Source: a virus
IMG/VR virus record: IMGVR_UViG_3300031269_000071
Span: 1-28,745 of that record
Strand: one strand, 5' to 3'
Length of the DNA: 28,745 nucleotides
A model generated the notes under the pieces. That model was given only the letters and a program-made list of their open reading frames with translations. It did no database searches and was not told the origin of the DNA. Of this stretch, positions 12,039 to 26,766 are shown piece after piece. A program made the translations under genes and the position numbers. Numbering within the stretch: the stretch's first letter is position 1; each line of letters begins with the position of its first letter.

Positions 12039-13624
12039 TGAGCATTAGGACTTCAAAACTTACCGGTAGCGGCTCTATACTTCAGGGCTCTGAGGTTAGC
12101 TATTCCTACTCAGAGGATGTAACCAGCCTTCAGCCTTCTGAGCTTTCAGGTGGTGCGGGTCAAGTGACACTTCAGGCAATCGCCCAGGAGTCGATCATTT
12201 CTGGCGACAAGCACCCTGCAACAAAGCTCTCAATCAATAACACCATGAGCGTTATAGACGACAATGCAGGTGAGGTCGAGTTTCAAGTTAAGAAGGTAAT
12301 CAGCAATTCCGAGCTGGTAAGCATAACCGGCTCTACCATTGATGCAACTTTAAACGTTGACAGAACTGCATTGCCAATGGGCGGTCCAGTAGACAATCCA
12401 AAGACACTAAAAGATGCCATCGACTACTATTGTGCTTTAGTTGACATAACCGCTTACTACTCTGATGATTTGCTTGACTATGTAGAAGCAAAGCCAGTGA
12501 ACTTTATCGGCTGGCAGGGCAACGTTTGGGAGCACTTGAAGATGCTGTGTGCTGGTGTGTCAGCTAGTGACACCGAATATGTCCCAATGGAGATGCACAT
12601 AGAGTTAAATGCATTAACTTTTAGAATTGCAAAGACACAGACTATCGATGTTCTTTCAAACGCTTCTTCAATTTCTACCGAGATCGATGCGTTCAATGCA
12701 GCTCAGCAGGTAGAGATAACGAGCTACGCAACTTCTTATAAAAGCAACGGCATAATCACAGAACAAGAGAGTCGTGTTGACGAGATTCTTGGCATTCAGA
12801 ATGTGACTATAAATGACCAGCTACAAGTGGAGGCTGGTGAGACTCTAGTTAAGCGCTTCACTGTAAACTCCTCTTTGACTAGCGTAAACCAGCCACTAAA
12901 CAAAAGCGCAATTACATCTCTTCCTTACACCGGCGCAACCGGCGAGTATGTCGTAGTTGGCTCTGATGATTTGCCAATACTTCCTGCTCAGTGGTTGGCT
13001 CAGGGAGGTCAGCTTGATGTCTCTCTTACTGAAAATCCCAATGAGATACAGATAAGAATTGTTGCACCAGCCGTGACCCAAATAGATGCCGCTGGTGGCG
13101 GCACAACTCTTGCGCCTTACAAAATCGGTGTCGAGTCTTCGGGAGCCGAAAGCTACCCAGCGTTGTGGATAACCGGCACAGGGGTGTTCTATGATGAGAA
13201 GCTAACCATTTTCCCTACTGGCTCACCAACTGAGTACGCTCCAAACATTAGTGCACCAAGCGTGACCAATCTTTTTATAAACAATGATGCTGACCTTTAC
13301 ACAAGAGGCGTTGCTGCTGCTCAATGGGAGTGTGGACCAAGAGTAAAGATAAACGTTGAGAACCCAGTTGATTCTAGCTTCGGCACAACTATTGGCTCTA
13401 TGTTTGTTTATGAGCAAAATAGATACAGAATTGACTCAGTTAGTTTCTCTCAGAACGGCTCAACTATATCTGCGGTTGCCTCTGCGCCAATCTCTGAATT
13501 TAATACCAACTGGGCTGGCAAAACGTTTCAAGATTTTACTGACTTTGCATTCGATCCAGACAACTCTCCAGATAGCTACTTGAGCTTTAATGAGTTTACA
13601 ATTATCCCACTAGCAAAGGTGTAA
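12038..13624 (+). CDS. Tail-tip hub-like minor tail protein
   Basis: A 528-residue protein if ATG at 12038 is used; that codon overlaps the previous stop as TAATG, as in the preceding gene. An in-frame GTG at 12023 would add five residues but has no better signal. The first third is beta-rich with VDNPKTLKDAIDYYCALVDI near residue 112, and then AKPVNFIGWQGNVWEHLKML, a helical block like that in hub proteins of actinobacterial phages. The remainder is mainly strands. Position third from the tape measure and size fit a baseplate hub or tail-associated protein. No lytic domain is seen. Confidence 0.6.
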   Translation: MSIRTSKLTGSGSILQGSEVSYSYSEDVTSLQPSELSGGAGQVTLQAIAQESIISGDKHPATKLSINNTMSVIDDNAGEVEFQVKKVISNSELVSITGSTIDATLNVDRTALPMGGPVDNPKTLKDAIDYYCALVDITAYYSDDLLDYVEAKPVNFIGWQGNVWEHLKMLCAGVSASDTEYVPMEMHIELNALTFRIAKTQTIDVLSNASSISTEIDAFNAAQQVEITSYATSYKSNGIITEQESRVDEILGIQNVTINDQLQVEAGETLVKRFTVNSSLTSVNQPLNKSAITSLPYTGATGEYVVVGSDDLPILPAQWLAQGGQLDVSLTENPNEIQIRIVAPAVTQIDAAGGGTTLAPYKIGVESSGAESYPALWITGTGVFYDEKLTIFPTGSPTEYAPNISAPSVTNLFINNDADLYTRGVAAAQWECGPRVKINVENPVDSSFGTTIGSMFVYEQNRYRIDSVSFSQNGSTISAVASAPISEFNTNWAGKTFQDFTDFAFDPDNSPDSYLSFNEFTIIPLAKV

Positions 13625-19239: not shown

Positions 19240-19380
19240 TTATAATTTTTGCACTAGGGCATAGCAGTGAAATGCTAGCGGGTATCTGTAGCCAGCTTGG
19301 AACTTGCTTGCGTGAAAGGCAACTGCTTCTGGATCTTTCTTGACATCTTCAAAACTGGCGTTCTTGTCGTAAGTGTCCAC
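19240..19380 (-). CDS. Small protein of unknown function between two larger genes
   Basis: A 46-residue frame begins at GTG (19380), directly after an in-frame TAA, and stops at 19240-19242, one base before the resolvase ATG. It reads MDTYDKNASFEDVKKDPEAV and ends FHCYALVQKL. It fills what would otherwise be a 110-base gap in a block where genes are packed end to end. Its composition is balanced, with a helix-like DPEAVAFHASKFQAGYRY stretch. The first 32 bases overlap the HTH gene in another frame. A weak GAAAG precedes the start. The evidence is position and composition only. Confidence 0.5.
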   Translation of the reverse strand: MDTYDKNASFEDVKKDPEAVAFHASKFQAGYRYPLAFHCYALVQKL

Positions 19381-19756
19381 TTAAAATCTTTCTGTGAATT
19401 GTTGACTTGGGTATTCCAGATATCCTTGAAAGCATATCGGCAGAAGTCCCGTCAGATGTAATCTTTTTTACTGTCTGCCAATCAACTTGGTCTATGTCTT
19501 GCTGAAAGATCAAGTCTCTAATCTCCTCAAGATGTTGGGGGTTTAGCTTACCACCGGTGCGAGAAGTCCTCTGGACAATTCTGCTAAGCGTTGCAGGGCT
19601 CTTGCCACACATATTGCTTATCTGCCTAATTGAGAATACGTTCTTCTCTGTAAGCTGCACAATTGTTCCACGCAACTCTTCTTCTCCATAAGAATCTGAG
19701 TTGTCTCTGAGCCTTATAGCCATTGCTATTGCGAATAAACTGTCTTGTTGTTTCAT
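19349..19756 (-). CDS. DNA-binding protein with two helix-turn-helix segments
   Basis: The 135-residue protein has two HTH-like stretches: SIRQISNMCGKSPATLSRIV at about 42-61 and SADMLSRISGIPKSTIHRKI at about 105-124. They resemble each other ('I S x x x G x x x x T I/L x R'), so the protein may be a duplicated DNA-binding module. It overlaps the primase-helicase stop by ATGA, so the two are made together. It could regulate early genes or bind the replication origin, perhaps at the repeat arrays near 25.3 kb; this is inference. No enzymatic motif is present. Confidence 0.7.
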   Translation of the reverse strand: MKQQDSLFAIAMAIRLRDNSDSYGEEELRGTIVQLTEKNVFSIRQISNMCGKSPATLSRIVQRTSRTGGKLNPQHLEEIRDLIFQQDIDQVDWQTVKKITSDGTSADMLSRISGIPKSTIHRKILSGHLRQERQF

Positions 19757-21966: not shown

Positions 21967-22170
21967 TTTCTCTTCTCCTCTTAGAAGTGTAAATAAAAAT
22001 AGCTAGATAGGACTTACGATATCGAGCAACGAATTAGTGTTGTCCTATCCAGCAGTCCCCTTTTGGGAGTCGAACCCAATACGCCAACACGAAAGAGGAG
22101 GGAGGTTAGCGTAATCCAATAAGGGGGAATGTGCGTTGTTTACGAGTCGCACCCCTCGTTCGCCCGTTTG
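21967..22170 (-). promoter_or_regulatory. Structured leader with a tRNA-like core before primase-helicase
   Basis: This 204-base gap is non-coding and highly structured as leftward RNA. CCCCTT (22126-22121) pairs with AAGGGG (22062-22057). Inside lie a 9-bp hairpin TACGCTAAC/GTTGGCGTA (22113-22105 with 22088-22080, one G-U pair) and a T-arm-like hairpin TTGGG-TTCGACT-CCCAA (22079-22063) abutting the outer helix as in tRNA. The D-arm and a normal anticodon arm are missing. At the start, ACGAG/CTCGT and GTGCG/CGCAC stems compete for shared bases. The arrangement suggests a regulatory RNA, a degenerate tRNA or an attachment-site remnant. Confidence 0.45.
21991..22053 (-). terminator. Terminator-like hairpin in the primase leader
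   Basis: GCTGGATAGGAC (22053-22042) pairs with GTCCTATCTAGC (22013-22002) over 12 bp with one G-U pair and a 28-nt loop, then TATTTTTATTT follows. As leftward RNA this could end or attenuate transcription between the SSB-like gene and the primase-helicase. The long loop and the broken T-run make it weaker than the two clear terminators in the window. Confidence 0.4.
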
Positions 22171-24766: not shown

Positions 24767-24774
24767 AACAATAG

Positions 24775-24807
24775 TTTTCCACAGGTTGTGAATAACTATT
24801 AGTTATT
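24775..24807. promoter_or_regulatory. DnaA-box-like inverted pair and 17-bp palindrome before whiB
   Basis: TTTTCCACA (24775-24783) and TGTGAATAA (24787-24795, the reverse complement TTATTCACA fits TTATNCACA) form an inverted pair three bases apart. Overlapping on the right is a perfect palindrome AATAACTA-T-TAGTTATT (24791-24807). Both lie in the 41-base gap upstream of the tandem whiB genes. They could bind host DnaA or a phage regulator. Confidence 0.4.
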
Positions 24808-25029
24808 TCAGCGTGTTTCGTAATTACTTTTTTCCATCGCCTTTAGTGATTGAACGACTTCTCGCATAATCTGTTCCTTGTATTCGTTCCGAAGTCCGAA
24901 CTGTGCGTATCCTGTGTTCGCTCTAACTTGGGCCTCAAGCTCAAGTATTGCTCCTCTGATACCACTTTGGTATCCAGAAAAGTATGCGTTGTGAGATGTC
25001 ATATGTATTACGTCGTTTATGCTGGTCAT
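24808..25029 (-). CDS. Small helical protein, function unknown
   Basis: The 73-residue protein begins MTSINDVIHMTSHNAYFSGY and has a predicted long helix through RGAILELEAQV and NEYKEQIMREVVQSLKAM. It has no cysteines, membrane segment or catalytic motif. Its ATG overlaps the DUF3310 stop as ATGA, so the two are coupled, and GGAAGAG lies upstream. I do not recognise a family. The helical build would suit a small binding protein or a modifier of a host target, which is speculation. Confidence 0.65.
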   Translation of the reverse strand: MTSINDVIHMTSHNAYFSGYQSGIRGAILELEAQVRANTGYAQFGLRNEYKEQIMREVVQSLKAMEKSNYETR

Positions 25030-25238
25030 TTTTTCTCTTCCTTTATTCTGTTGATTTCATCGTTTATGTAAAATCTTGCTTTCTCAAGGTCTTGGATCCC
25101 TTCACCCTTTAGGTCTGCTCGCCAGATGTATTTCACAGCGTTGCCTAGATTGAAGTTCATATGTCTTGTGACTTCGATCGCTTCGATGCCACTTGGGTGA
25201 CTGGTGTAATGCTTTGGGTTGTTTACTGGGTCGTTCAT
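25026..25238 (-). CDS. DUF3310 family protein
   Basis: The 70-residue protein reads NNPKHYTSHPSGIEAIEVTR at 6-25, then NFNLGNAVKYIWRADLKG at 28-45 and DLEKARFYINDEI. The 'PxHY...GIE.IEV' and 'F.lGNAvKYiwR..KG...DL.KA..Y' blocks are the signature of DUF3310 proteins, which occur in many phages, often beside nucleotide and replication genes. The biochemical role is not settled. A ribosome site GGAGA lies upstream, and a promoter-like pair with tandem repeats precedes it, so it may be the first gene of a transcript. Confidence 0.88.
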   Translation of the reverse strand: MNDPVNNPKHYTSHPSGIEAIEVTRHMNFNLGNAVKYIWRADLKGEGIQDLEKARFYINDEINRIKEEKK

Positions 25239-25250
25239 ATCTCTCCTTTT

Positions 25251-25295
25251 GGTAGTTTAGCGAGGGTGAAAAGGGTAGTGTAGCGAGGGTGAAAA
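25251..25295. repeat. Two 22-bp tandem direct repeats
   Basis: GGTAGTTTAGCGAGGGTGAA continues with AA at 25251-25272, and the same 22 bases with one change (T to G at the seventh base) recur at 25274-25295, a period of 23. They lie between the promoter-like -10 box and the DUF3310 start codon, a position suited to a repressor operator. Confidence 0.8.
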
Positions 25296-25323
25296 TCGTA
25301 TGCCGTTTGTCGCAAGCTGTCTA
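25295..25323 (-). promoter_or_regulatory. Sigma-70-like promoter for the DUF3310-led transcript
   Basis: On the minus strand TAGACA (25323-25318) and TACGAT (25300-25295) are 17 bases apart. Transcription would start near 25288, inside the second tandem repeat, and run into the DUF3310, whiB and nuclease genes. The -10 box overlaps one base of the repeat, which suggests operator control. Confidence 0.5.
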
Positions 25324-25350
25324 GCTTCGTTGACGTTAAGGGCTATTTCA

Positions 25351-25524
25351 TTACTAATGTAAGTTGTTATTTACATTACTAACTTTAGTTATTCTTTGCC
25401 TTACTAACTTTTGTGACGATAGTGTTACTAAGGCGCTTGTGTCGTTATGATTACAAATCACTTTGTGCCGTATCGGTTACATTCCATGTTTTTATGGATG
25501 CTGGCTTTTATGTTTTTATAGATG
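25351..25524. repeat. Iteron-like array, period about 25 bp
   Basis: TTACTAA begins at 25351, 25376, 25401 and 25425; related TTACAAA and TTACATT begin at 25451 and 25477. The spacings are 25, 25, 24, 26 and 26. A second element, TTGTG-N-CG, recurs at 25411, 25437 and 25463, exactly 26 apart. ATGTTTTTAT-R-GATG then recurs at 25486 and 25510, 24 apart. The units are degenerate outside these cores. Such helically phased repeats usually bind an initiator or repressor. Confidence 0.65.
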
Positions 25525-25750
25525 GTTCAAGTGCTTCAAGTGCTTTCCTAACGCAAACCTCTGCACCATCACCATAGCGATGTTTGTAATGTATTCCTTG
25601 TTGCTCATAAATGTCAAGATAAACAGGGTCGTCACCAATAGTAGCAATGTAAGTATTTACATCGTCGGGGTCTGTGCCACCCCCCTCCCTAGTAATATGT
25701 ATCTCACTGAGGAGAGTCCGATTTACTCTAATCTGAACGTGTAGTGGCAC
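25508..25750 (-). CDS. Small conserved actinophage-type protein, function unknown
   Basis: The 80-residue protein starts at GTG (25750) with GGGAG six bases upstream. It reads MPLHVQIRVNRTLLSEIHIT, then GGTDPDDVNTYIATIGDDPV, and ends GDGAEVCVRKALEALEPSIKT. The strand-rich first half and final helix suggest a small mixed fold. I have a sense of similar short proteins in other actinobacterial phages, without a known role. It overlaps the exonuclease end by 23 bases. The final codons also form part of the repeat array. Confidence 0.65.
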   Translation of the reverse strand: MPLHVQIRVNRTLLSEIHITREGGGTDPDDVNTYIATIGDDPVYLDIYEQQGIHYKHRYGDGAEVCVRKALEALEPSIKT

Positions 25751-26306: not shown

Positions 26307-26575
26307 CTTTTTTGATTCTTTAGCAACGATTCAAATGCCTGACTTCTCAAAAGAGTTAGTGCGTTTGTCGCTGTCGCTGTTTCGCTCATCAGTTTTTCAG
26401 CGCAAGCTCTCCATCCAGCTTTGTAAGACTGTCGGATTTGTTGTCCTTCGATAATCCCGGGGTTTGCCAGCTTGTCCTGTAACTCTGCAATCTGTTTGTT
26501 TCGCTTTGTCAGAGTGGCTTGAAGCCCTTCGATGTGGATGTGTAGATTTTCTATGTTTTGCTCTTGCTTAGTCAT
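26303..26575 (-). CDS. Small coiled-coil protein, function unknown
   Basis: The 90-residue protein has a heptad-type coiled coil in its first 40 residues (NIENLHIHIEGLQATLTKRN, then KQIAELQDKLA), followed by a second helix with a Trp (SYKAGWRACAEKLM). ATGA overlaps join it to the genes on both sides. No catalytic motif or membrane segment is visible. It may be a dimerising partner of one of the neighbouring DNA enzymes; this is inference from position. Confidence 0.65.
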   Translation of the reverse strand: MTKQEQNIENLHIHIEGLQATLTKRNKQIAELQDKLANPGIIEGQQIRQSYKAGWRACAEKLMSETATATNALTLLRSQAFESLLKNQKR

Positions 26576-26766
26576 TCTTCTCCCTCCATAATCATTTCTT
26601 CAAGCTCTTTAGCCGTATACGGATACTCCAAGGCTTCCATTATGGTTCGGTTGGCTTCTTTAGCCTGAAACATTTTGATTATGCGCTCACGCTCTAACTC
26701 AACCCCAGCCTCGTAGCCTTTTGTCCAGTAAAGCTTGTTGCTCATATCTTTCATATCTACTATCAT
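26572..26766 (-). CDS. Small acidic helical protein, function unknown
   Basis: The 64-residue protein is helical and rich in Glu and Lys: LYWTKGYEAGVELERERIIK, then MFQAKEANRT and AKELEEMIMEGEE. The 'GYEAGVELERERI' pattern is common in small early proteins of actinobacterial phages, though its role is unknown. Three Met codons lie in the first eight residues; I use the first because it overlaps the helicase stop as TAATG. The end overlaps the coiled-coil gene. Confidence 0.65.
   Translation of the reverse strand: MIVDMKDMSNKLYWTKGYEAGVELERERIIKMFQAKEANRTIMEALEYPYTAKELEEMIMEGEE

Follow-up and report, generated by a model that had tools for sequence, protein, structure and literature searches.

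The locus analysed here raises the question of what a regular array of short repeats is doing directly upstream of an early gene, and whether it marks a replication origin or a control region. The window, i.e. the whole stretch of DNA that was analysed, is a linear IMG/VR virus record of 28,745 bp, in which structural genes run rightward up to ~16.3 kb and genes for DNA metabolism form a leftward block at 16.66-28.71 kb. This block encodes an exonuclease, a two-HTH protein (19349..19756, minus strand), a DUF3987 primase, a DUF669/SSB-like protein, a Sak4-like protein, a Cas4-like exonuclease, two WhiB proteins, a DUF3310 protein, a DnaQ-like exonuclease and an SNF2-type helicase. The array lies in a gap of 269 bp (25239-25507) between an 80-aa ORF upstream (phrog_3491; 25508..25750, minus strand) and the DUF3310 gene (25026..25238, minus strand), which is the first gene downstream of the element; as the earlier note had stated, this is the biggest gap in the leftward block, the next being 204 bp. 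Based on the WhiB genes and on the best annotated relatives of the primase, which are phages of Arthrobacter, Gordonia, Microbacterium and other actinobacteria at ~37% identity, we infer that the phages considered here are actinophages.

The array (25345..25502, minus strand) consists of about six units of 24-26 bp and lies upstream of a promoter-like site read on the minus strand. TTACTAA or close variants had been reported at six positions; the word is exact at 25351, 25376, 25401 and 25425, whereas 25451 reads TTACAAA and 25477 reads TTACATT, both weak matches. TTAC is constant in all six units and most other positions vary. The measured spacings of 25, 25, 24, 26 and 26 bp agree with the range claimed, and the two companion motifs are also where they were said to be, TTGTG-N-CG at 25411, 25437 and 25463 (26 apart) and ATGTTTTTAT-R-GATG at 25486 and 25510 (24 apart). 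Of the two ATGTTTTTAT copies, the second overlaps with the 3' end of the 80-aa ORF, and in phages lacking the full array it trails relatives of this ORF, which carry its 3' tail. Only once in the whole record do four identical 7-mers follow one another at nearly constant spacing; such a chain was reached in none of 150 order-2 random sequences of 28.7 kb, five of which reached three, and in none of 3000 random sequences of local composition. The word TTACTAA is not enriched in the record (7 observed vs 3.75 expected), and the signal is therefore the regularity and not the word. Tandem Repeats Finder calls the core independently (25344-25411, period 25), and the array has a GC content of 32% compared with 47% for the record. 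The array is regular and real, partly as first described. Its upstream edge holds a small hairpin, TCCAT-AAAAAC-ATGGA (25486..25502, minus strand), and similar hairpins precede the element in other phages that carry it. A short array of two boxes was also seen in contig L242 (2140-2250), with TTAGTAA at 2219 and 2243 beside small hairpins, TCCACTAAAGTGGA, and hairpins similar to these precede the element in other carriers.

Read 5' to 3' on the minus strand, the gap contains the small hairpin, the array, TAACGTCAA..AAGC, the promoter-like site TAGACA-N17-TACGAT, a leader starting with TTTTCACCCTC..., a ribosome-binding site (AAAGGAGAG, just 5' of the DUF3310 gene) and the start codon. The promoter-like site (25295..25323, minus strand), sigma-70-like by sequence, is made of TAGACA (25318-25323), a 17-nt spacer and TACGAT (25295-25300), with a start point predicted near 25288 on the minus strand, which would place the predicted box centres 66 to 192 bp upstream of it. 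Between the promoter and the start codon there are two tandem copies of a 23-bp leader repeat, CTTTTCACCCTCGCTA(C/A)ACTACC (25251..25296, minus strand), which Tandem Repeats Finder also reports at 25251-25295; the start-proximal sequence CTTTTCACCCTCGCTACACTACC is confined to 25251-25296 within the record. Two to three tandem copies of this repeat (TTTTxCACCCTCGCTACACTACC) are found just before DUF3310 in the record and in contigs L003 and L004, and leader repeats are present in L003 (6660-6715), L004 and L007, all without the array. A scan with the leader pattern gave too many matches, probably by chance, and was discarded.

The same element of ~190 bp, at 75-97% pairwise identity, is found in at least five other IMG/VR phage contigs, the homologues being L206/L233/L235, L250, L252, L258, L260 and, in part, L261. 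Apart from the element, these contigs have little nucleotide similarity to the record, and some have none. A scan for three TTACTAA words at the array spacing returned 47 stretches, mostly unrelated repeats, with a true homologue in L206, L233 and L235 (183 bp at 87% identity to the record plus an adjoining 24-41 bp); the others came from scans that used the promoter block, an inner block or a box block, and a final carrier scan of IMG/VR found nothing new. Some carriers were found by exact patterns, and identity inside those patterns is partly selected; L252 and L258 were found via the promoter pattern, so that the conservation of their arrays is independent of the search. Two exact-pattern scans of bacterial and archaeal genomes gave no match, and the specific element is without a match in the annotated phage and plasmid collections searched (INPHARED and PLSDB).

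The genes on either side of the element differ among carriers. Upstream there is the 80-aa ORF in the record, a holin in L233 and L250 and a WTLGYEAG-type small ORF in L252 and L258, and downstream there is DUF3310 in the record and L252, a YqaJ/RecE-like exonuclease in L233 and L250 and an excisionase-like HTH gene in L258, with the element in the same orientation toward the downstream gene in every case. By blastn, neither L233 nor L250 is similar to G002 outside the element, which is also the main similarity in several other pairs, and L233 shares with the record the 183 bp together with ~90 bp of one small gene. The copies of L252 and L258 are identical across 168 nt except for one 26-bp unit, whereas their DUF3310 genes are 68% identical, which indicates that the element moved recently between different phages. 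A single 26-bp unit (25451..25476, minus strand) is missing in L233, L250 and L252 and present in L258 and L260, and whole units are thus gained or lost, probably through recombination between the repeated boxes. In L272 (G002; 12688-13048) the array is followed by flank sequence that lies before it in G001 and L258, as though this flank had been duplicated and partly deleted.

In light of these data, our preferred reading, which we regard as probable if only narrowly so, is that the element is a promoter that phages exchange horizontally, that has a multi-site binding region upstream of it and that drives the leftward early operon. The genes driven would be DUF3310 first and then those for WhiB, the exonuclease and the Sak4-like recombinase, and the cassette would be exchanged as a unit among phages whose actinobacterial hosts are probably of the same kind. 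A DNA-binding protein, either a phage HTH protein or a host factor, would occupy the boxes, at the distance of ~66 to 192 bp given above, and would activate or repress the promoter cooperatively; this placement would fit activation by an array as well as repression from upstream via cooperation or looping. The earlier note had offered a multi-site control region as one of its two readings, and the conservation of the array together with the promoter-like site and an early-gene start, despite different downstream genes, speaks for such a region as far as sequence comparison can indicate. A promoter adjacent to the repeats is likewise recognisable by sequence. From the -35 site into the leader, five of the six distinct copies hardly vary, TAGACA-N17-TACGAT being unchanged save for one spacer base in five of six distinct carriers, and the hexamers, the 17-nt spacing and the leader start are among the best-conserved parts of these five. 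The exception is L260, where the array is present without the promoter block, which argues against the promoter reading, as does the match of the hexamers to 9 of 12 consensus positions, since sites of this quality are expected by chance about twice per 1.5 kb. Also weighing against it are the boxes, which are conserved about as well as the spacers, the lack of an HTH gene common to all carriers, and the nearest relatives, in which the array is missing.

The earlier note had also proposed a replication origin, tied to the primase-helicase and the two-HTH protein of the same block. According to this explanation, an initiator, or transcription starting at the adjacent promoter, would open iteron-like and inverted repeats in AT-rich DNA, and several features are compatible with it: the array is AT-rich, carries direct plus inverted repeats with a promoter-like site adjoining, changes copy number as whole units, lies near recombination and replication genes and is exchanged between phages. 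The link to the replication genes found no support. A primase scan of IMG/VR yielded 72 loci, and the array occurs in none of these 72 primase-bearing records, searched as whole records, although they are mostly fragments, many of which stop short of this locus, and one of the searches was without an internal positive control; the leader alone is found, in three. The array thus does not travel with the primase, the two-HTH or the WhiB genes, and the two-HTH gene has no co-occurrence tie to it. The longest carriers, G001 and G002, have no blastp match to the primase or the two-HTH protein of the record, and no replication gene is common to the long carrier contigs. Nor is there an exact DnaA box (TTWTNCACA) in 25239-25507, one with a mismatch being present at 25367. 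GC skew, which the earlier note had suggested might have a minimum here, shows no extremum at the array and turns near 16.0 kb, where transcription switches strand; the skew in this incomplete genome follows the direction of transcription. The array was expected in the nearest relatives, L003 and L004, whose primase and WhiB proteins are ~99% identical to those of the record, but it is missing there before DUF3310, the order in L003 being the DnaQ-like gene, ~110 bp, the 23-bp leader repeats and DUF3310; in L007 there is a second arrangement, with a different gene straight before DUF3310. A lack of conserved boxes or spacing in related phages, named beforehand as counting against the array, is therefore what the nearest relatives show, but it is contradicted by the more distant phages. 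Taken together, we consider an origin at this site unlikely.

Two inverted repeats, A (GCCTTAGTAAC-N15-GTTAGTAAGGC; 25398..25434, minus strand; boxes at 25401 and 25425) and B (TTAGTAATGTAA-N8-TTACATTAGTAA; 25351..25382, minus strand; boxes at 25351 and 25376), allow the array to fold, and it could alternatively be a structured RNA, e.g. a regulatory or antitermination-like one, read through from the upstream minus-strand genes. The folding is more stable than that of shuffled sequence (MFE z-score of -3.55, with 1 of 200 shuffles as stable) and than that of sequences in which the boxes were kept and the spacers shuffled, and sense-strand z-scores range from -1.8 to -5.4 in five members. The antisense scores are low too (-1.4 to -3.4), as expected of inverted repeats in DNA. 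The pairing of inverted repeat B is kept despite a double change in L252, L258 and L260, and there are several G-U changes among the copies; this one compensatory change, common to the three sequences, is the whole of the covariation and was equalled by 26 of 500 shuffles. Rfam gave no match for the array region and ARAGORN no tRNA, and the promoter-like site lies downstream of the array, which hence would not be transcribed from there. We consider an RNA improbable, and the symmetry more likely reflects DNA sites, as judged from the sequence. The dyad symmetry summed over the units gives P = 0.002 against shuffled spacers, but single units match in only 3-6 of 7 positions; a dyad scan gave no single clean palindrome per unit, which led us to reject a perfect palindromic operator in each of them. 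A further explanation is a recombination or mobility hotspot, in which neutral repeats are kept by phage recombination and the boxes have no regulatory role. Different gene modules flank the element in the carriers and likewise abut DUF3310 in the closest relatives of the record, the G002 flank is duplicated or rearranged, and conservation of the boxes does not clearly exceed that of the spacers, with 37 of 45 and 32 of 43 invariant columns, respectively, summed over the six-copy alignment. Conservation is highest at the promoter end and in one box region, GCGCCTTAGTAAC, where 13 of 13 columns are the same in all six copies. A neutral spacer is unlikely to hold 75-97% identity, an invariant promoter-like block and a constant orientation unless all exchanges were very recent, and we give this explanation a small chance.

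In a promoter with an upstream binding region, the boxes might be bound by a protein of the host or by an HTH protein of the phage. An all-against-all protein comparison found no HTH gene common to all carriers, most carrier contigs being fragments. HTH_17/excisionase-like genes are present in L252, L258 and L242; such genes are common in actinophages, and their presence was therefore not counted as evidence. The sole protein family found in every carrier compared is one of ~65 aa without a DNA-binding assignment. Members of this family (W-T-x-G-Y-x-A-G-V-E-x-E-R-x-R-I) are encoded at 26572-26766 in the record, 7059-7256 in L233 and 1351-1551 in L250.

Operator arrays at phage promoters are well known as a kind. 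In lambda OR and OL, several imperfectly symmetric sites stand ~20-25 bp apart at an early promoter, and the element resembles them in having clustered, imperfectly symmetric sites at such distances, but its boxes are upstream of the -35 site and not over the promoter, the symmetry within units is weak and no repressor gene has been identified for it. Iteron origins, such as the P1 RepA iterons and lambda ori, have repeats at ~20-25 bp spacing in AT-rich DNA (for context see PMC7157519). The array shares this spacing and setting and consists of tandem direct repeats at regular spacing, but it has no linked cognate initiator gene and does not co-occur with its phage family's replication genes. 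Cluster K mycobacteriophages carry start-associated sequences with extended inverted repeats, SAS/ESAS (PMC3203893, PMC12699233). Like these, the element is found in actinophages just upstream of the start codons of different gene families (PMC3203893, PMC12699233), with an asymmetric start-proximal sequence, imperfect inverted repeats upstream, one main orientation and a proposed role in expression control. Its sequence is unrelated, the SAS consensus GGGATAGGAGCCC at many gene starts being replaced by the start-proximal sequence given above, and it occupies one site per genome where tested, whereas SAS/ESAS occupy many; it also differs in having about six tandem units of 24-26 bp and a promoter-like site and in being exchanged between unrelated phages. 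The stoperators of cluster A mycobacteriophages are 13-bp sites scattered across the genome (PMC9283540). Cluster A operators and stoperators are asymmetric sites for a repressor that recur in the direction of transcription (PMC9283540), and the boxes of the actinophage element resemble them in repetition, asymmetry and orientation, but the element is a single cluster of different sequence.

Phage mosaicism is usually described for genes, and here it concerns a non-coding cassette of ~190 bp, which is the best conserved and sometimes the only nucleotide sequence common to otherwise different phages and stands before different early genes. Tentatively, we also propose that this control cassette of array, promoter and leader might move independently among unrelated actinobacterial phages and bring various early genes under one common regulator, perhaps one supplied by the host, which would give the unrelated phages of one host a shared control signal; we hold this with clearly less confidence than the promoter reading itself. 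If the signal is indeed a common one, its binder would reveal how regulation is shared among unrelated phages that infect one uncultured host.

Two other sites in the leftward block were noted. The 204-bp gap upstream of the primase gene (21967-22170) contains a strong hairpin, CTGGATAGGAC/GTCCTATCTAG; on the minus strand a T-rich run comes after it, and by its sequence this looks like an intrinsic terminator. Directly upstream of the first WhiB gene (24767-24807) there is a 31-bp near-palindrome, AATAGTTTTCCACAGGTTGTGAATAACTATT, which consists of two exact DnaA-box-like sites in inverted orientation (TTTTCCACA and TTATTCACA) and is a possible operator or DnaA site.
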